A DNA stretch of 6,782 bases from Candidatus Atribacteria bacterium (lineage in GTDB: Bacteria; Atribacterota; JALVIU01): NCBI GenBank assembly GCA_027028665.1, contig JALVIU010000396.1, positions 1-6,782 on the forward strand. Direction: 5' to 3'. Below, piece after piece: positions 1 to 6,782 of the stretch; position 1 is the stretch's first letter, and the number at the start of each line of letters is the position of its first letter. A program made the translations under genes and the position numbers. A model generated the notes under the pieces. That model had not been told where the DNA came from, did no database searches, and saw nothing but the letters and a program-made list of their open reading frames with translations.

Positions 1-1173
1 AATGACCCCCATCTATTGAGGGCCCTTTATTTGCATCCTCACCTTAAGGCACAAAAAGGTGGTCAGGGTAAAGGTAAGAAGCAGAGAGGTAGAAATGGTA
101 AAGATCTTATTGTCTCTGTGCCTGTAGGTACAGTATTCATAGACCCTGATACTGGAAAGATTGTATATGATTTGAATAAAGAAGGACAAAAATTTATAGC
201 TGTCCGTGGTGGTAAAGGTGGTAGAGGAAATTATCATTTTAAAGGTTCTGTAAATCAGACACCACGGTTTGCAGAAAAAGGGGAACCAGGAGAGGAAAAA
301 AGCTTTATTTTAGAGCTTAGACTTATAGCCCATGCAGGTCTTGTAGGTTTTCCAAATGCAGGCAAGTCCTCTCTTCTTGCCGCACTTACAAATGCGCATC
401 CTGAGATAGGTGATTATCCTTTTACCACACTTAATCCAAACCTTGGTGTTATCTATGACCCGCAAGGGGTAGAGGAAGAGTATTTTATTATCGCAGACCT
501 TCCTGGACTTATAGAGGGCGCATCAGAGGGTAGGGGTCTTGGATTCAAATTTCTAAAACATATAGAAAGGGTTGGACTTTTGGTATTTGTACTGGATGTA
601 TCTCTTCCTAACTGGAAGGAGAATTTTCATCTCCTAAAGAGAGAGCTTGAGAGGTATAATCCAGAAATAGTAAAAAAAGATGCGCTTTTGGTGCTAAATA
701 AGATAGATCTTATAGATAATGTAGATAAATTGGAAAAAGAGGCATCAGATGCCTTTTCACTTCCTGTGATTTCTGTATCTGCAAAGGAAAAGATGGGTAT
801 AGATAAGCTCAGGGCATATGTTTATGATACTCTTTCAAAGATGGATTGGAATGTAGAGGAGAGTGCCCCTTCTGATGAGGAGAAGGTATACACATATAAA
901 CCTTTATTTACCATAGAGGAGATGTCCACAGGCCTTGAGGTAAAAGGAGATAAGATCGAAAAACTTATATACAAAACAGATTTTACAAGCTGGGATGCAG
1001 CAAGGCATTTTTTAAATGTAATAACACGTATGGGAATTAAAAAGGCACTTTTAAGACATGGTGCAAAGCCTGGTATGGAAATAAAAATGGGGGATATGAT
1101 ATTTGACTATGATGAGATTTTTAATCCACCCATAGATCCATTGCCTAAGAGAAAGAAAAGGATCAAAAGATAA
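1..1173 (+). CDS. obg: Obg-family GTPase, 5' end missing (runs off left edge)
   Basis: Obg (CgtA/ObgE) is a conserved bacterial GTPase that binds the 50S ribosomal subunit and links ribosome maturation to stress and the cell cycle. The reading frame is open to base 1, giving 390 visible residues. From the family's usual N-terminus, about 50 residues of the glycine-rich Obg fold are missing. Visible parts in order: the rest of the Obg fold, with the typical VPVGTV, GGKGGRGN and RFAEKGEPGEE segments; then the G domain, with G1 GFPNAGKS (residues 116-123, bases 346-369), G2 FTT (141-143), G3 DLPG (166-169), G4 NKID (233-236) and G5 SAK (260-262). The C-terminal OCT domain (about 300-373) ends in a short basic tail, KRKKRIKR. 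The TTG at base 16 is an internal Leu codon, not the start, because the conserved family sequence continues upstream of it. All GTP-binding motifs are intact, so the gene looks functional. The stop TAA lies at 1171-1173 inside the 3' end of the opposing gene. Confidence 0.97.
   Translation, partial: NDPHLLRALYLHPHLKAQKGGQGKGKKQRGRNGKDLIVSVPVGTVFIDPDTGKIVYDLNKEGQKFIAVRGGKGGRGNYHFKGSVNQTPRFAEKGEPGEEKSFILELRLIAHAGLVGFPNAGKSSLLAALTNAHPEIGDYPFTTLNPNLGVIYDPQGVEEEYFIIADLPGLIEGASEGRGLGFKFLKHIERVGLLVFVLDVSLPNWKENFHLLKRELERYNPEIVKKDALLVLNKIDLIDNVDKLEKEASDAFSLPVISVSAKEKMGIDKLRAYVYDTLSKMDWNVEESAPSDEEKVYTYKPLFTIEEMSTGLEVKGDKIEKLIYKTDFTSWDAARHFLNVITRMGIKKALLRHGAKPGMEIKMGDMIFDYDEIFNPPIDPLPKRKKRIKR
1163..1173. 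other. Convergent 3' overlap of obg and the YYY gene
   Basis: The obg stop (TAA, 1171-1173, + strand) and the stop of the DUF2298 gene (TGA on the - strand, bases 1163-1165) overlap tail to tail by 11 bp. There is no intergenic space for a shared bidirectional terminator. I found no strong hairpin plus T-run just downstream of either stop, so each transcript probably ends inside the other gene. Confidence 0.9.
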
Positions 1174-3118
1174 ATTTGAAAATATAACCATTTCCTACTC
1201 TTATTGTTTCTACTTCTATCTTTTTTGTAGAATATGGTAATATAAGCTTTTCTCCATAGTACTTTTTCTCAAGTGTTCCTATAATCATATACTTTACCTT
1301 GTATTTAAGTATAAACGGCTCTTTTTCTTTCATGGACCCTGTATATAGTGTGTAGACAGCTTTTTCTCTTTCATCACCTTCAGGAATATATCCACGCCAT
1401 ACAAGCTCATGCATCTTCCACCCCAGGATGGTAGGAAGCCCTGTATATGTAGATATTCTTCCATAGTAGGTATATGCCCCTTTATTCTTATTTACTGCCT
1501 CTACTATTCCTGGATGTCCCTGTATATTTTTATTTATATATTGAATAATATTATAATCTATCGGATAGCGGGTCTTTATAAATAATATTCCATTTAATGT
1601 AGGAGGGGATGCAAGATCTATTCTACCCTTTACTCCTACTGGTAGATAAATAAAAGCAGGAATGATAATCAGAACCAGGATTATAATAGAAAGTTTGTTA
1701 TTTTTACTGAGATTTAGATATGAAAGAGATACTGCAAATAATATCCATGATAAAAAGTAAAATTTAAATACCGTATTTCCCCTATAGAATGCACCACCAC
1801 TATATATATCCTTTATAAAAAGCACTTCACAGCCAGAGACTACAACATATCCATACATAAGTAACATAAGAAAAAATTTTCTTATTCTATCTTTTTCCTT
1901 TATTGTAATGCTAAATAGTGAAAGTGCAAATATACCCAGAAAGAGTGAGGGTCTATATATAAGGACGGGAATTAAAAGTAATAGAAGATATTTATATCTT
2001 TTTATATAATCTGCTAATATGATTATATCCTTTTTCTTAAGCATATTTAAGGTAAGGAGAATAAATGGACCAAGGTGAATAAAAAGCGGTAGAAGTTTGC
2101 TTCCTTTTGGTACTATGCCAAGTCCAAGGGGCGTATGCCCTCTGGTGTAAAGAAATGGGAGGGCAAGTATTATTGCACCTACCAGAAAGGTGCTTATATC
2201 TACTATATCATCTGTCTTAAACCCGTTTTCTATATACCTTTTTACTACCCATAGGAAAAAGAAAAATGGCAAGGACCATGGATTTATGATAAGTATGAAT
2301 ACAAATAAGAAGAGCATCCATACCTTTTTTTCTTTCCATATAAGATAAATGCCCAGAATACTAAGTGGCAAAAAGAAGTAATGCGGATGGTTGTCCCCAT
2401 GTATAAATGAAAAAAGGGGAAATTCATTTATGGTATTTGGTATAACCCTTGATGATGCCCAATAGTTTATGAGATTTTGATGTCTAAGCAGAGCTACGAA
2501 TCTCTCATAATTTGCCATAAAGAGGGTGGTAATTACACCCAATATACCTATGGGTATGCTTCTTTTTATCTTATAGAGAACTTCAAATACTATGCCTGCA
2601 CTTATTGAAAAAATGAATACATTATAAAGGTTATACATTATAGGATTTGGAATATAGAGAAGCTTTGATATAAGTGATATAGGGATGAAGCCAAAGTAAT
2701 AGTAAGGATTTCGATAGCCTATGAGCCATGGATCATAAGGAGGAAGATGAGCACTTCTTCCGATAGATGTAACAAATGCATACTCCATAGGTTTTTCTGC
2801 GCCAAATATAGCAGAAGAGTGTAATCTTACGTAGAGTGCAAATAAAAATACAATAAAAAATACCCCCTCGCTTAGTAAGTCTTCCCTTTTTATTTCGACC
2901 TTTTTTTTACTGTATAGATAGATCACCAATCCCAGTGCAATAAATGCAAAGAATATAAAACTATTAAGTGGTATAAATCTTATAAATGAGAGATAAGATG
3001 TAAAAAGAGTGGCAAGAAAAATACCAAAGAGCTTTCCTCCCTGAAATCCAATATTTAATATCTTCCCTGCAAGTCCTGCGTATATGAGAAATATATAGAA
3101 CTTAACGACTTCTTCCAA
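1163..3118 (-). CDS. DUF2298 / TIGR03662 'Chlor_Arch_YYY' integral membrane protein
   Basis: A 651-residue, very hydrophobic protein with about a dozen membrane segments. It matches the DUF2298 (Chlor_Arch_YYY) family at its signature sites: FGAEKPMEYAF (105-115); PPYDPWLIGY (126-135), followed by the YYYxG signature as YYYFG (139-143); FIHGDNHPHYF (238-248); RGNTVFKFYF (446-455); and GRISTYTGLPTILGW (553-567) followed by HELVWRG (570-576). The family is sporadic in archaea, Chloroflexi and other bacteria and has no settled function. The layout of many helices with a conserved acidic/aromatic loop near the N-terminus resembles GT-C enzymes that use lipid-linked sugars (inference). Single-domain members are usually about 700-900 residues, so this is a compact copy that keeps all landmarks. 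The start is TTG at 3118-3116, chosen for the strong GGAGGG 9 bases upstream. It overlaps the GT2 gene by 17 bp. It is the last gene of the operon and runs 11 bp into the 3' end of obg. Confidence 0.9.
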   Translation of the reverse strand: MEEVVKFYIFLIYAGLAGKILNIGFQGGKLFGIFLATLFTSYLSFIRFIPLNSFIFFAFIALGLVIYLYSKKKVEIKREDLLSEGVFFIVFLFALYVRLHSSAIFGAEKPMEYAFVTSIGRSAHLPPYDPWLIGYRNPYYYFGFIPISLISKLLYIPNPIMYNLYNVFIFSISAGIVFEVLYKIKRSIPIGILGVITTLFMANYERFVALLRHQNLINYWASSRVIPNTINEFPLFSFIHGDNHPHYFFLPLSILGIYLIWKEKKVWMLFLFVFILIINPWSLPFFFFLWVVKRYIENGFKTDDIVDISTFLVGAIILALPFLYTRGHTPLGLGIVPKGSKLLPLFIHLGPFILLTLNMLKKKDIIILADYIKRYKYLLLLLIPVLIYRPSLFLGIFALSLFSITIKEKDRIRKFFLMLLMYGYVVVSGCEVLFIKDIYSGGAFYRGNTVFKFYFLSWILFAVSLSYLNLSKNNKLSIIILVLIIIPAFIYLPVGVKGRIDLASPPTLNGILFIKTRYPIDYNIIQYINKNIQGHPGIVEAVNKNKGAYTYYGRISTYTGLPTILGWKMHELVWRGYIPEGDEREKAVYTLYTGSMKEKEPFILKYKVKYMIIGTLEKKYYGEKLILPYSTKKIEVETIRVGNGYIFKFIF

Positions 3119-3809
3119 TAATTCTCTCCCTCCACCAGAGCTTTAGAATTTCTTTAAATGCACGAAATATTACTTTAATATTTGCACCTGTCTGTTTTCC
3201 TTCTTTTCTTGGGAAATGATGTACCCCTACCTCTTTAAATTTATACCCTTTATTTATAAGTTTAAACATGATCTCAGGGTTTATGGCTGCACCATGGGAT
3301 TCTATGGTAATATCCTTTACAATATCCCTTTTAAACAGCTTAAAGGCACAATCTATATCCCTTACCTTAACCCCAAGGAGTATCCTTGTAACAATAGTCC
3401 ATCCTTTACCAAAAAGCTTTCTCAGTAAGGGGTCCTTTCTATCTATTCTATACCCTATTACAAAGTCATATTCTTCTATATAGGGTAATAAGAGTTTTAG
3501 TTCACCAGGGTCAAATTGGTTATCTCCATCTGTAAAAAATACAAGGTCCATACGAGATTCTTTAAATCCTGTTTGAAGGGCGCCACCATACCCTTTATTT
3601 TTCTCATGTTTTATAGGGCGGATCCTGGGATTTCTTTCTGCCTCTTTTTTTGCGATTTCAAATGTTTTGTCCTGACTTCCATCATCTACAATTATAATCT
3701 CATAATCCTCTGCCACCTCTTCAAGTACTTTTTCTGCACGTTCTATCGCCCTTTTTACATTTTTCTCTTCATTATACATAGGATAGAAAAATGAAATTGT
3801 ATGTTTCAT
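3102..3809 (-). CDS. Family 2 glycosyltransferase, DPM1-like (putative polyprenyl-phosphate sugar synthase)
   Basis: A 235-residue GT-A-fold glycosyltransferase. The N-terminus has the GT2 nucleotide-binding features: FYPMYNEE (8-15), then IIIVDDGSQDKT (38-49). Next come KGYGGALQTG (72-81) and the metal/nucleotide motif TDGDNQFDP (93-101), with Asp94 and Asp96 as the likely DXD pair. The VRDIDCAFKLFKR stretch (149-161) is typical of dolichol/polyprenyl-phosphate mannose or glucose synthases. No membrane helix follows the catalytic domain, unlike GtrB-type members with C-terminal helices; the tail is short and basic (WWRERIIGRSR) and may hold the enzyme to the inner membrane face. The likely reaction is transfer of a hexose from a nucleotide sugar to polyprenyl phosphate in the cytoplasm; sugar and lipid cannot be told from sequence. 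The ATG start overlaps the previous stop as ATGA, with GGAGG 7 bases upstream. It could instead add a sugar to a protein or glycan, but context favours a lipid carrier. Confidence 0.9.
   Translation of the reverse strand: MKHTISFFYPMYNEEKNVKRAIERAEKVLEEVAEDYEIIIVDDGSQDKTFEIAKKEAERNPRIRPIKHEKNKGYGGALQTGFKESRMDLVFFTDGDNQFDPGELKLLLPYIEEYDFVIGYRIDRKDPLLRKLFGKGWTIVTRILLGVKVRDIDCAFKLFKRDIVKDITIESHGAAINPEIMFKLINKGYKFKEVGVHHFPRKEGKQTGANIKVIFRAFKEILKLWWRERIIGRSR
3128..3133 (-). promoter_or_regulatory. Shine-Dalgarno for the YYY gene, supports a TTG start
   Basis: On the - strand the sequence reads GGAGGG, followed by 9 bases and then TTG (3118-3116). It lies within the last codons of the GT2 gene. 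This strong site is the main reason for accepting the TTG start, and it lets ribosomes finishing GT2 re-initiate on the next gene. Confidence 0.75.
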
Positions 3810-5077
3810 ATTATATCCTCCATAATTTCTTGAGCTACCTCTATTCCTTGAGATATAGAATCATTTATTGATCTTTCGGGATATGACCTTGGAAGGCCCG
3901 CGATCCATATATACTCCCCTACAATTTTTTTAGGGGGAATTTTTCTTTTGTACCCGGTTTCATATACTGGTCCTGCATATCGAGAATAATATGCAAAGCT
4001 TTTTATAATTTCTTCATCCCTTATATTAAAGGTATTTTTAAAAGATGCTATGATTTCTTCCCTTTTCTTCTCTATATCTTCCTTTGTAAGTTCTTCACCC
4101 TCTGTGTATAGTGCAAGATATACTATATGGAAAGGATAAGGGTTTTCTTTGAAAAAGTTTGTATGTTCTACCATTACAGAAAATGCCAGATCCTCGTCAG
4201 ATATATTAAGCCAATAGTATTTTTGTACTCTTTTGGTAAGTGTAAGGATCACAGAGAGACAACCCTGGTATGAAACATCAGGGATCTTATATGGGGATAT
4301 CTGGTTAAATATGGGTTGGGGGATGGTAGATATAATATATTTTGCCTCATATTCTCTTTTTTCTGTTTTTATTTGATAGATGTTTTCTTTTTTTTCTATC
4401 TTCTTTACTTTTTCTTGTATCTTGATTTTACCGCCCAATTTCTTTACTTCTTCTATTAATCTATCTATCAAGATTTGCCATCCACCCTCTGGATATGCAA
4501 GTTTTTCACCCTTTGTATCCCTGTGGGATCTAAGCTGTATCCTTCTTATAAACCATGAGGCTGAGACCCTTTCTACATTTGGTCCAAACTTTGCTTTAAG
4601 TAGTGGGGCCCATAGTTTTTTGTATATACTTTTACCCCATACTTTTTCTATATATTCCTTTGCAGATATATCATCATATTCTTCCCATGATTTTACTTTT
4701 TTTGCAGCAAGGACAGATATACCTACTCTTATCTTCTCAAAAAAGTTTATGACAGGAAATCCAAGCATGTCACCTGCAGTGTTAAATCCATAAACTTTTT
4801 TATTATATAGAAATCCTACACTCCCTGTTTCCCACCTTATTTTATCCCTTATACCAAGCTCATCCATTAATATATATAGTTGGTCATCATCGGGAAAGGT
4901 ATGATGATAGTAAACCTCTATATAGTGTCCATCTATATTTATACTACCTAAAAGCCCTCCAACATATGGATTTCTCTCGAATATTGTAAGCTTATATTTA
5001 TCGCTTTTTTTCAAGATTTCATATGCGGCAGAGAGGCCTGATATGCCACTACCTATTATCGCTACTTTATCCTTCAT
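3806..5077 (-). CDS. FAD-dependent oxidoreductase, HemY/amine-oxidase superfamily, of a type found in glycan clusters
   Basis: A 423-residue flavoprotein. The N-terminal Rossmann motif is GSGISG (9-14), with Glu34 at the end of the second strand as the usual FAD-ribose ligand, then YVGGLLG (38-44). A conserved HHTFPDDD (58-65) follows, then AKFGP (162-166), the strand-turn YPEGGWQILIDRL (195-207) and STIPQP (250-255). The C-terminal FAD-binding segment is IWIAG (390-394) through NDSISQG (405-411). The protein resembles protoporphyrinogen oxidase/phytoene desaturase-like enzymes (COG1232-type), and more distantly UDP-galactopyranose mutase, and matches a widespread uncharacterised group seen beside glycosyltransferases. 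It is unlikely to act in haem synthesis, since no haem genes are nearby. Its place between the UPF0104 and GT2 genes suggests it modifies a sugar nucleotide or the polyprenyl carrier (inference). Start: ATG at 5077-5075 with AAGGAG 10 bases upstream; it overlaps the UPF0104 gene by 11 bp and the GT2 gene by 4 bp. Confidence 0.87.
   Translation of the reverse strand: MKDKVAIIGSGISGLSAAYEILKKSDKYKLTIFERNPYVGGLLGSINIDGHYIEVYYHHTFPDDDQLYILMDELGIRDKIRWETGSVGFLYNKKVYGFNTAGDMLGFPVINFFEKIRVGISVLAAKKVKSWEEYDDISAKEYIEKVWGKSIYKKLWAPLLKAKFGPNVERVSASWFIRRIQLRSHRDTKGEKLAYPEGGWQILIDRLIEEVKKLGGKIKIQEKVKKIEKKENIYQIKTEKREYEAKYIISTIPQPIFNQISPYKIPDVSYQGCLSVILTLTKRVQKYYWLNISDEDLAFSVMVEHTNFFKENPYPFHIVYLALYTEGEELTKEDIEKKREEIIASFKNTFNIRDEEIIKSFAYYSRYAGPVYETGYKRKIPPKKIVGEYIWIAGLPRSYPERSINDSISQGIEVAQEIMEDII
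3817..3821 (-). promoter_or_regulatory. Shine-Dalgarno for the GT2 gene
   Basis: GGAGG on the - strand, 7 bases before the GT2 ATG (3809-3807). It sits inside the last codons of the FAD oxidoreductase gene, whose TGA stop overlaps the ATG as ATGA, a standard translational-coupling arrangement. Confidence 0.75.
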
Positions 5078-6065
5078 TTTGCATTTTCTCCTTTTTAGAT
5101 AAAATTTCTTTTACATTTATTGAGACCCCTATTCTAATAAATAAAATTATACCAATAATAGTTATAGGTAGATACATAACAAGATAGTGTACAACTAGGC
5201 TGTATCCTGTGGCAAGATTGGGATCAGGATTTTTATAAAAAAACATGAACACCTTTTTTGTAACAAAATCGAATATGCCGATATGGCCAGGTGAATATGA
5301 GATAATAAGTGCAAGTGTAGATAAGGCCATGAGTAGTACAAAAGCAAGAGGAGGAAGTGAAAGCCCAAAGGAAAGTCCTGTAAACCAAAAAGATACTCCT
5401 TCTATAAACCAACTTAATATGGAGAGTGAAAGTGCAATTGTAAGATATTTTTTTGAGCCCATAAAACTCAGGCCTTGCTGTAGGGACTCAAAATGTTTTC
5501 CACCTATCTTTTCGATAATAATATATATACCCTTAAGGGGTCCCTTTAGGTGTTCTTTTTCCTGGATGATAAGAAACCCTATTACAATTACAATAGAGAA
5601 GACTATGCCAGACAAAAGAGCAACCTTTTTTACCCATCCTTCCCATAGGTAAAAGGGTGAGAGAATGAGTACAAGAATAAGAAGCGCTACACCATCAAAT
5701 AGTTTTTCATATGCTACTGTAGTAAAAGAAGTAACAAACTTTATATCTTTTTTCTGTGAAAGTACGTATGCACGGATTACTTCGCCTAATCGAAATGGTA
5801 ATATATTGTTAAAGGCATAAGCAATGGATACACCTTCAAAAAGTGTTTTCGTATCTATAAATTTTTGAGTGATGAGGAAATATCTCCATCTCATTGCCCT
5901 TGTAAATACCCCTAATATGAATACACCCATGGCAATTATTAGATACCCTATATTTATGTCATCTATTATAGTAATAAGTTTTTTAAAATCTACCCCTTTG
6001 AATGTGAGCCAAAGAAAAAATGCTCCAAATAGTATGCTAAATAGTATCTTTTGCCATCTTTTCAT
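5067..6065 (-). CDS. UPF0104 / YbhN-like membrane protein (LPG_synthase_TM fold)
   Basis: A 332-residue inner-membrane protein with about seven to eight helices (near 7-23, 40-56, 122-140, 146-167, 207-230, 238-257 and 287-312). Family landmarks are TRAMRWRYFL (55-64), NNILPFRLGEVIRAYVL (86-102), YEKLFDG (119-125) and YSPGHIGIFDF (257-267). This is the fold of the N-terminal, lipid-translocating half of MprF, but the catalytic lysyltransferase half is absent, so it should not be called a lysylphosphatidylglycerol synthase. Stand-alone members are common in clusters for glycolipids and polysaccharides and are suspected of moving or handling lipid intermediates. Here a role in flipping the product of the neighbouring GT2 is plausible but inferred. 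The ATG start is 1 bp after the upstream stop, with GGGAAG 6 bases before it. The last 11 bp overlap the FAD oxidoreductase gene. The C-terminal tail is charged and likely cytoplasmic. Confidence 0.9.
   Translation of the reverse strand: MKRWQKILFSILFGAFFLWLTFKGVDFKKLITIIDDINIGYLIIAMGVFILGVFTRAMRWRYFLITQKFIDTKTLFEGVSIAYAFNNILPFRLGEVIRAYVLSQKKDIKFVTSFTTVAYEKLFDGVALLILVLILSPFYLWEGWVKKVALLSGIVFSIVIVIGFLIIQEKEHLKGPLKGIYIIIEKIGGKHFESLQQGLSFMGSKKYLTIALSLSILSWFIEGVSFWFTGLSFGLSLPPLAFVLLMALSTLALIISYSPGHIGIFDFVTKKVFMFFYKNPDPNLATGYSLVVHYLVMYLPITIIGIILFIRIGVSINVKEILSKKEKMQNEG
5088..5093 (-). promoter_or_regulatory. Shine-Dalgarno for the FAD oxidoreductase gene
   Basis: AAGGAG on the - strand, 10 bases before the ATG at 5077-5075, within the 3' end of the UPF0104 gene. 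A nearer ATG (5084-5082) is out of frame with the oxidoreductase and is an internal Met codon of the UPF0104 gene. Confidence 0.65.
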
Positions 6066-6066
6066 A

Positions 6067-6782
6067 TTATTCTTCCCATTTAAGTCCCTTTTTTATCCAT
6101 ACCCTCATACTGTATCCCCCTACAGGGCTCCATACCTCTCTTTTAAATATATATCTTATGAGTTTGTCTCTATTTTCCTTCTTTAAAAGCCACCAGAAGT
6201 TCCCTTTTGGAACCCACCATGCCCTAAGTGTTGCATCAAAGAAATTATGTGTTTTCTCTAATTCCTTTGGATAAGTTATATTGTTTGTAATAAGGACATC
6301 GTAATTAAGATAGTTCTTTATATTTTTGTCATATGCCACTCCAAGGTCTCTTAGATACCATGGAAATGGCCATGTATAATCATTATGAATGACTGTTCTC
6401 AGGCCTTTTTTTTCTCTGGCGAGTTTGTGTATGATCCTTGAGATCTTAGGTACATCCTGAGTGCTTTGTACATATACCAGTATCTCTGCATGTTTTCCAT
6501 CTTTGGGCTCTATAGTAGGGTATTTAAAGTTTACAAGGTAGTTTGCGTATATTCCATATATTCCGAGAAGAAGGACAGGAATCAGAAAGATGATCTTTAC
6601 GGTTTTTCCGTATTTTTCCCATATTGCTTGCATAACAAAACTAGATACTACAATAAGGGGAAATACCATATGCACTACTATCCATGGTGCTTTTTCTCCT
6701 GCATATGCATATATGATAAGTGAGAGTATTGACCACCATGTGGCAAGCCTAAATAGAGAACTTTTTTTATATAAATCTACTA
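6067..6782 (-). CDS. TIGR03663 / Agl23-type membrane protein, C-terminal part (runs off right edge)
   Basis: The frame is open to the window end, giving 237 residues of the C-terminal part. A GTG at 6675 could be taken as a start, but it lies inside a conserved motif, so the true start is beyond the window. The motif is the family's GEKxPW signature, here YAGEKAPWIVVHMVFPLI (visible residues 27-44, bases 6702-6649), inside the membrane region. A second hydrophobic stretch (about 60-80) follows, then an extracytoplasmic-looking domain with YVQSTQDVP (103-111), TWPFPWYLRD (136-145), which is also highly characteristic, and a Trp-rich end (WWVPKGNFWWLL). TIGR03663 proteins are GT39-like and are named after Agl23, a protein associated with flippase activity in haloarchaeal glycosylation. 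They often lie near TIGR03662 proteins, as here. It precedes the UPF0104 gene by 1 bp. Its role is either flipping the lipid-linked sugar or transferring it outside the cell; the sequence does not decide. Confidence 0.87.
   Translation of the reverse strand, partial: VDLYKKSSLFRLATWWSILSLIIYAYAGEKAPWIVVHMVFPLIVVSSFVMQAIWEKYGKTVKIIFLIPVLLLGIYGIYANYLVNFKYPTIEPKDGKHAEILVYVQSTQDVPKISRIIHKLAREKKGLRTVIHNDYTWPFPWYLRDLGVAYDKNIKNYLNYDVLITNNITYPKELEKTHNFFDATLRAWWVPKGNFWWLLKKENRDKLIRYIFKREVWSPVGGYSMRVWIKKGLKWEE
6072..6077 (-). promoter_or_regulatory. Weak Shine-Dalgarno for the UPF0104 gene
   Basis: GGGAAG on the - strand, 6 bases before the ATG at 6065-6063, made from the final Trp-Glu-Glu codons of the Agl23-type gene. 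It is a poorer match than at the other junctions. With a stop-to-start gap of 1 bp, initiation probably depends on coupling. Confidence 0.5.

Follow-up and report, generated by a model that had tools for sequence, protein, structure and literature searches.

A five-gene operon of TIGR03663, UPF0104, PRK07233, GT2 and DUF2298 proteins in a Candidatus Atribacteria genome: a candidate lipid-linked glycosylation module

Introduction

The co-occurrence of TIGR03662 and TIGR03663 has already been noted in family notes, and UPF0104 proteins are homologous to MprF, a homology that has also been used for their interpretation as flippases. We know of no activity shown so far for DUF2298 (TIGR03662) or PRK07233 proteins. 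A described protein of the TIGR03663 type is Agl23 of Haloarcula hispanica, which translocates a dolichol-linked glycan (M5GN2-PP-dolichol) in liposomes and rescues yeast lacking Rft1 (PMC11182771). Agl23 pairs with the dolichol-phosphate sugar synthase Agl22, as the original prediction for the present locus had correctly stated and as is given in PMC11182771, which cites Lu 2020. UPF0104 proteins are predicted flippases according to Makarova 2015 (PMC5898192). Other systems that share components with the locus are AglD of Haloferax volcanii, a GT2 protein fused to UPF0104, and ArnC/ArnT, which act in the transfer of aminoarabinose from undecaprenyl phosphate to lipid A. Here, we describe an operon in which all of these protein types, or relatives of them, are encoded side by side together with a DUF2298 protein and an FAD enzyme, and which probably represents a lipid-linked glycosylation module.

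Results and discussion

Organization and extent of the operon

The window, that is the whole stretch of DNA analysed, is the complete contig C396 (6782 bases) from a Candidatus Atribacteria bacterium MAG, which is bacterial and consists of 1.79 Mb in 413 contigs with a completeness of 89.9%. The ORF listing of the window contains five ORFs arranged head to tail on the minus strand, from position 6782 down to 1163. In the order of transcription, the features are as follows:

L003:1-1034, on contig C256, also from this MAG: N-terminal part of Agl23, with an exact 127-bp overlap with C396
6067..6782, minus strand: C-terminal ~237 aa of a TIGR03663/Agl23-type GT-C protein (85.6 bits, below the cut-off of 126.25; 287.1 bits when joined)
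5067..6065, minus strand: UPF0104/LPG_synthase_TM flippase-like protein, 332 aa (PF03706, 157.3 bits, cut-off 33.4; TIGR00374, 81.9 bits, cut-off 43.2)
3806..5077, minus strand: PRK07233-type FAD-dependent oxidoreductase, 423 aa (NF005560, 399.1 bits, cut-off 252)
3102..3809, minus strand: GT2 polyprenyl-phosphate sugar synthase-like glycosyltransferase, 235 aa (PF00535, 111.8 bits, cut-off 23.3)
1163..3118, minus strand: TIGR03662/DUF2298 ('YYY') membrane protein, ~650 aa, last gene of the operon (349.3 bits, curated cut-off 300.25)

Three of the four junctions among the five ORFs are overlaps (11, 4 and 17 bases), and the fourth is a 1-base gap. The original prediction had described five overlapping or abutting genes with family signatures; all five ORFs are indeed present and the quoted motifs are real. 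Its Agl23 gene was assigned to the right family, but only ~237 of the 540 residues lie inside the window.

At the left end of the window, obgE is located on the plus strand and is convergent with the operon, the 3' ends of obgE and the DUF2298 gene overlapping by 11 bases (1163-1173). The gene upstream of Agl23, on contig C256, is divergently oriented, and the 136 bases between the two genes contain promoter-like hexamers (consensus matches only). This neighbour (L003:1171-2931) encodes a 586-aa protein for which no NCBIfam or Pfam match was found. Because one flanking gene is divergent and the other convergent, the operon is limited to five genes, and the transcription unit likely consists of Agl23, UPF0104, FAD, GT2 and DUF2298 with nothing further. 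The suggestion that oligosaccharyltransferase or sugar-nucleotide genes might follow beyond the window edge was therefore rejected.

The possibility that the contig is an archaeal contaminant is disfavoured by the bacterial obgE, with its C-terminal domain, on the same contig, and further by the exact overlap that joins C256 to C396 and by the similar G+C of the two contigs. No known RNA family was found in the window or in C256.

Family membership of the five proteins

The DUF2298 protein matches TIGR03662 (Chlor_Arch_YYY) from position 15 to 703 of the 727-position profile with a score above the cut-off, scores 218.8 bits against PF10060, and contains the YYY and GD.H.H motifs; it is thus a member of this family. 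The FAD enzyme is a full-length member of PRK07233, and the UPF0104 protein exceeds the cut-offs of both of its profiles and belongs to that family. The low score of the TIGR03663 piece inside the window is explained by the contig ending within the gene: the 540-aa protein obtained by joining C396 and C256 exceeds the cut-off, contains the HHDE, HGP and GEKxPW motifs and is a TIGR03663 (Agl23-type) member. The HMM searches proposed for TIGR03662 and TIGR03663 in the original prediction thus both gave scores above the cut-offs. The GT2 protein scored 61.5 bits against the Agl22 dolichyl-phosphate hexose transferase profile (NF041391, cut-off 375) and 82.9 bits against the ArnC equivalog profile (PRK10714, cut-off 529), and full membership in either was rejected because these scores are far under the cut-offs.

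Conservation of the gene neighbourhood

An alignment of DUF2298 proteins from the window and of two from another genome (G057) was scanned against a collection containing one genome per species (~85,000 species), and at least 541 relatives were detected. Eighty loci from other species were kept for a neighbourhood survey, in which profiles derived from the five families were used to score the ORFs. At a distance of up to 6 kb from DUF2298, we found GT2 at 31, the PRK07233 FAD gene at 32, UPF0104 at 36 and Agl23 at 35 of the 80 loci; at least three partners were present at 28 loci, all four at 8 and none at 19. These counts are lower bounds because many of the loci are on short contigs, and the 19 loci without any partner indicate that the association is modular and not obligatory. 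The families neighbour one another in many genomes, and the neighbourhood check called for in the original prediction thus did not refute it: the association is not confined to this genome.

The gene order varies among lineages, with three recurrent arrangements (Methanomicrobiales, Chloroflexota and clostridial). The Methanomicrobiales arrangement is FAD-GT2-UPF0104-DUF2298 with Agl23 a few kb off, and the Chloroflexota arrangement is DUF2298-Agl23-UPF0104-FAD, with no GT2 seen close to the Chloroflexota clusters in this survey. In Ca. Mnemosynella biddleae, a tight cluster of Agl23, FAD, a GT2+UPF0104 fusion and DUF2298 reproduces the order of the window except for the place of UPF0104, and an Archaeoglobi MAG, JdFR-42, also encodes a GT2+UPF0104 fusion followed by DUF2298. 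These two domains, encoded by separate genes in the window, are found in one polypeptide in L056 and L051. Clostridial loci show GT2-DUF2298, with a UDP-galactopyranose mutase gene directly upstream in five cases (L091, L093, L103, L106 and L110, at ~7.6-9.1 kb), at the place occupied elsewhere by the PRK07233 FAD gene.

Several further features were observed during this survey. An undecaprenyl-diphosphatase gene, uppP/bacA (PF02673, 266 bits), directly follows DUF2298 in L046:9737-12625 and thereby links DUF2298 to polyprenyl carriers. In G028, a genome of the window's phylum, a membrane protein of 676 aa whose C-terminal part weakly matches TIGR03662 is encoded together with a PMT and an ArnC-like GT2 (L154:1909-6655), and this triad may be a remote analogue of the module. 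In some Chloroflexota, Agl23 reaches a length of ~1000 aa (L120:9575-12580 and L063:13830-16868); the C-terminal extra part in L120 resembles, by eye, NHL-type repeats.

We also surveyed the surroundings of the FAD gene, using PRK07233 loci both from genomes to which the DUF2298 survey had led and from members of the G057 phylum. Of 13 loci in this phylum, 12 have GT2 next to the FAD gene, and the contig of the 13th (L220) ends just past the FAD gene. The 12 include G057 itself, since a 317-base gap in the ORF calls vanishes with the profile match, which starts farther upstream. One genus of the phylum contains GT2-FAD-Agl23 and two DUF2298 genes within ~11-14 kb (L213 and L214). A Chloroflexus and another Chloroflexota genome have UPF0104 directly before the FAD gene (L197 and L199). 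Several archaea and some Chloroflexota carry the FAD gene separately from the other four. In G057, a DprE1-like oxidase, a DprE2-like SDR, an ArnC-like GT2 and PRK07233 form one run (L152:6279-10502); the score of the DprE1-like oxidase, 344 bits, is under the cut-off of 500.

Co-occurrence of the families and lineage of the genes

PRK07233 scored over the cut-off in 15 of 17 DUF2298-bearing genomes, the two without it being clostridial. Among 61 genomes around the window, it did so solely in the two with TIGR03662 over the cut-off, that is, in none of the 59 relatives without TIGR03662 at that level. Among the 45 genomes from the G057 phylum, PRK07233 is present in 16 of the 20 genomes with DUF2298 versus 5 of the 25 without it (Fisher p 8e-5, or 0.03 when one well-sampled genus is collapsed), with the relatedness of genomes only partly corrected in these presence/absence tests. 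Of the control genomes, solely Haloferax volcanii and Methanosarcina acetivorans had TIGR03662, TIGR03663 and PRK07233 over the cut-offs.

None of the 49 other genomes of the window's phylum contains TIGR03662 over the cut-off. In quick trees, in which placement is unsure, the FAD and Agl23 proteins of the window are isolated on long branches that lie between or next to the clades of archaea and Chloroflexota, and recent transfer from a sampled archaeon or member of the Chloroflexota is thus not supported.

Predicted folds and conserved residues

AlphaFold2 models were built from alignments of relatives for the DUF2298 protein of the window (pLDDT 88.8) and for Agl23 of the archaeon Ca. Mnemosynella (pLDDT 86.3), which was modelled in place of the window protein because the latter spans two contigs. 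The top structural match of the Agl23 model is ArnT, with a Z of 27.9 and 3.7 A over 420 residues; the matches to PMT, STT3 and ALG12 are nearly as good. The DUF2298 model matches ALG12, STT3, DPY19 and AftA with Z of 15-18, a good but not overwhelming result given that helical bundles can reach a background Z of ~13; Foldseek gave a probability of 1.00 to AftA, STT3 and DPY19. By these models, both proteins are predicted to have the GT-C glycosyltransferase fold, and Pfam may already place DUF2298 among GT-C families. Fold matches at 7-17% identity are not proof of catalysis, and helical bundles often give middling Z, a limit that weakens the DUF2298 match more than that of Agl23.

In DUF2298, more than 20 positions, many of them charged, are invariant among 35 aligned sequences, including E107, D128, Y138-140, R223, E231, D241, H243, H245, E430, R445 and K451; this is the pattern expected of an enzyme, as judged from the alignment. 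The HHDE and HGP motifs of Agl23 are invariant among relatives and GEKxPW (E332, K333, P335 and W336) is near-invariant, and the window protein retains H49-H50-D51-E52, H75-G76-P77, R141, R144, D146, E332 and W336. Agl23 and DUF2298 thus both hold invariant acidic residues; by predicted secondary structure, D51/E52 of Agl23 and E107 of DUF2298 come after the first core helix and may correspond to the catalytic acidic residue of the first extracytoplasmic loop in GT-C glycosyltransferases. In GT2, D94 and D96 are conserved in 31 of 31 sequences, and among solved structures the protein comes closest to ArnC and dolichol monophosphate mannose synthase (E ~1e-18). GxGxxG and Y57-H58-H59 of the FAD enzyme are invariant in 34 of 34 sequences.

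Proposed pathway and alternative explanations

Gene content and order, family membership, neighbourhood conservation, fusions and GT-C folds were computed here, and we infer the biochemical steps, the sugar and the acceptor. In the proposed pathway, GT2 would transfer a sugar from a nucleotide sugar onto polyprenyl phosphate at the cytoplasmic face, and the FAD enzyme would alter the charged intermediate, either at the sugar or at the prenyl carrier. UPF0104, possibly aided by Agl23, would then carry the charged lipid to the outer leaflet, where Agl23 and DUF2298 may use the polyprenyl-phosphate sugar on a surface acceptor (protein, glycolipid or polysaccharide). The overall interpretation in the original prediction is partly supported. 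Its view that a single pathway includes both UPF0104 and the FAD enzyme is strongly supported by their neighbourhoods in several deep lineages with differing gene orders, by the GT2-UPF0104 fusions and by the correlated presence of PRK07233 and TIGR03662, and we count the FAD enzyme as part of the module. No match to the STT3-family oligosaccharyltransferase profile (PF02516) was found in the MAG, in which a copy may have been missed because the assembly is 90% complete, and the only PMT_2 match in the MAG is Agl23 of the operon. It is conceivable, although somewhat less likely than not, that DUF2298 is a new family of polyprenyl-phosphate-dependent GT-C transferases, that PRK07233 is a new flavoenzyme remodelling the lipid-linked sugar before transfer, and that such an undescribed, STT3-free system is widespread across archaea, Chloroflexota and other bacteria.

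Chance or loose clustering of the five genes, with an unrelated role of the FAD gene, would be in keeping with the genomes that contain PRK07233 without DUF2298, such as the 5 of 25 in the phylum of G057, or far from it. However, at least four lineages show the association, under differing gene orders, and, because genomes contain one or two copies of PRK07233 over the cut-off, only about one chance FAD neighbour is expected (by estimate) among the 80 loci, versus the 32 seen; we regard this explanation as very improbable. It is also conceivable, albeit rather unlikely, that Agl23 is chiefly a flippase for the charged lipid, the role proposed for it in haloarchaea, with DUF2298 as the sole transferase and UPF0104 serving another purpose, e.g. 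carrier recycling. The activities of Haloarcula Agl23 in Rft1-less yeast and in liposomes (PMC11182771) point in this direction, as does the finding that Agl23 and UPF0104 sometimes occur apart. Against this speak the ArnT/PMT-like GT-C fold predicted for Agl23 and its invariant HHDE and HGP motifs; the characterized proteins of this fold are mostly transferases, so that flipping need not be the sole role of Agl23; moreover, the domain fused to GT2 is UPF0104, the natural position for a flippase.

Two other alternatives are variants of the proposed pathway. The FAD enzyme could quite conceivably act on the prenyl carrier (saturation, desaturation or isomerization) and not on the sugar, because carotene desaturases, protoporphyrinogen oxidase and prenylcysteine oxidase are among its relatives by sequence, and archaeal carriers are partly saturated. 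The UDP-galactopyranose mutase genes directly upstream of GT2-DUF2298 in the clostridial loci, which encode a sugar enzyme, and the DprE1/DprE2-like genes beside GT2-FAD in G057 argue instead for the sugar. Similarly, the module could conceivably build a surface glycolipid or polysaccharide and not protein glycans, a reading that we hold with some reserve and that concerns the acceptor only. It is consistent with the failure to detect STT3/PglB in the MAG, with the lipid A modifier ArnT as top structural match of Agl23, and with the resemblance of DUF2298 to AftA, a cell-wall arabinosyltransferase; by fold, however, PMT and STT3 match about as well, and for Agl22/Agl23 of Haloarcula a role in both N- and O-glycans has been reported (PMC11182771).

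Significance

Each of the five families is known singly. In the open-access literature, which is part of the whole, we found no paper that describes the five as one system or that names GT2, UPF0104 and PRK07233 as recurrent partners of TIGR03662/TIGR03663. The present analysis ties the DUF2298 (at least 541 relatives) and TIGR03663 membrane families and the PRK07233 flavoenzymes together with a lipid-sugar synthase and a flippase-like protein, and these partners recur across methanogenic archaea, Chloroflexota and another bacterial phylum (that of G057). The association yields a concrete and testable pathway, with Haloferax volcanii and Methanosarcina acetivorans as tractable hosts that both carry three of the families over the cut-offs. 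It is also relevant to a recent report of Agl23 moving lipid-linked oligosaccharides in the manner of eukaryotic Rft1 (PMC11182771).

Comparison with known systems

Like Agl22/Agl23 of Haloarcula hispanica, the operon combines a TIGR03663 protein with a GT2 gene that resembles polyprenyl-phosphate sugar synthases, but its GT2 falls well short of the Agl22 profile (61.5 versus 375 bits), DUF2298, UPF0104 and the FAD enzyme are added, and the host is a bacterium. The GT2/UPF0104 pair, which is fused in archaeal relatives of the operon, recalls AglD of Haloferax volcanii; in the window, however, the two are separate genes with the FAD gene between them and GT-C partners adjacent. With ArnC/ArnT, the operon has in common a GT2 charging enzyme and an ArnT-fold GT-C protein, whereas the Arn sugar-making genes are not found alongside, the GT2 is not an ArnC equivalog, and an extra GT-C protein (DUF2298) and the FAD enzyme are present. 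The arCOG00899 neighbourhoods (UPF0104, AglD-like GT2 and PMT/STT3-like arCOG00563) provide a similar predicted UPF0104-GT2-GT-C glycosylation context, but in the passages of PMC5898192 that describe them DUF2298 goes unmentioned and no oxidoreductase is named as a UPF0104 partner. Finally, the window shares the co-occurring TIGR03662 and TIGR03663 pair itself, here in one operon with GT2, UPF0104 and PRK07233.
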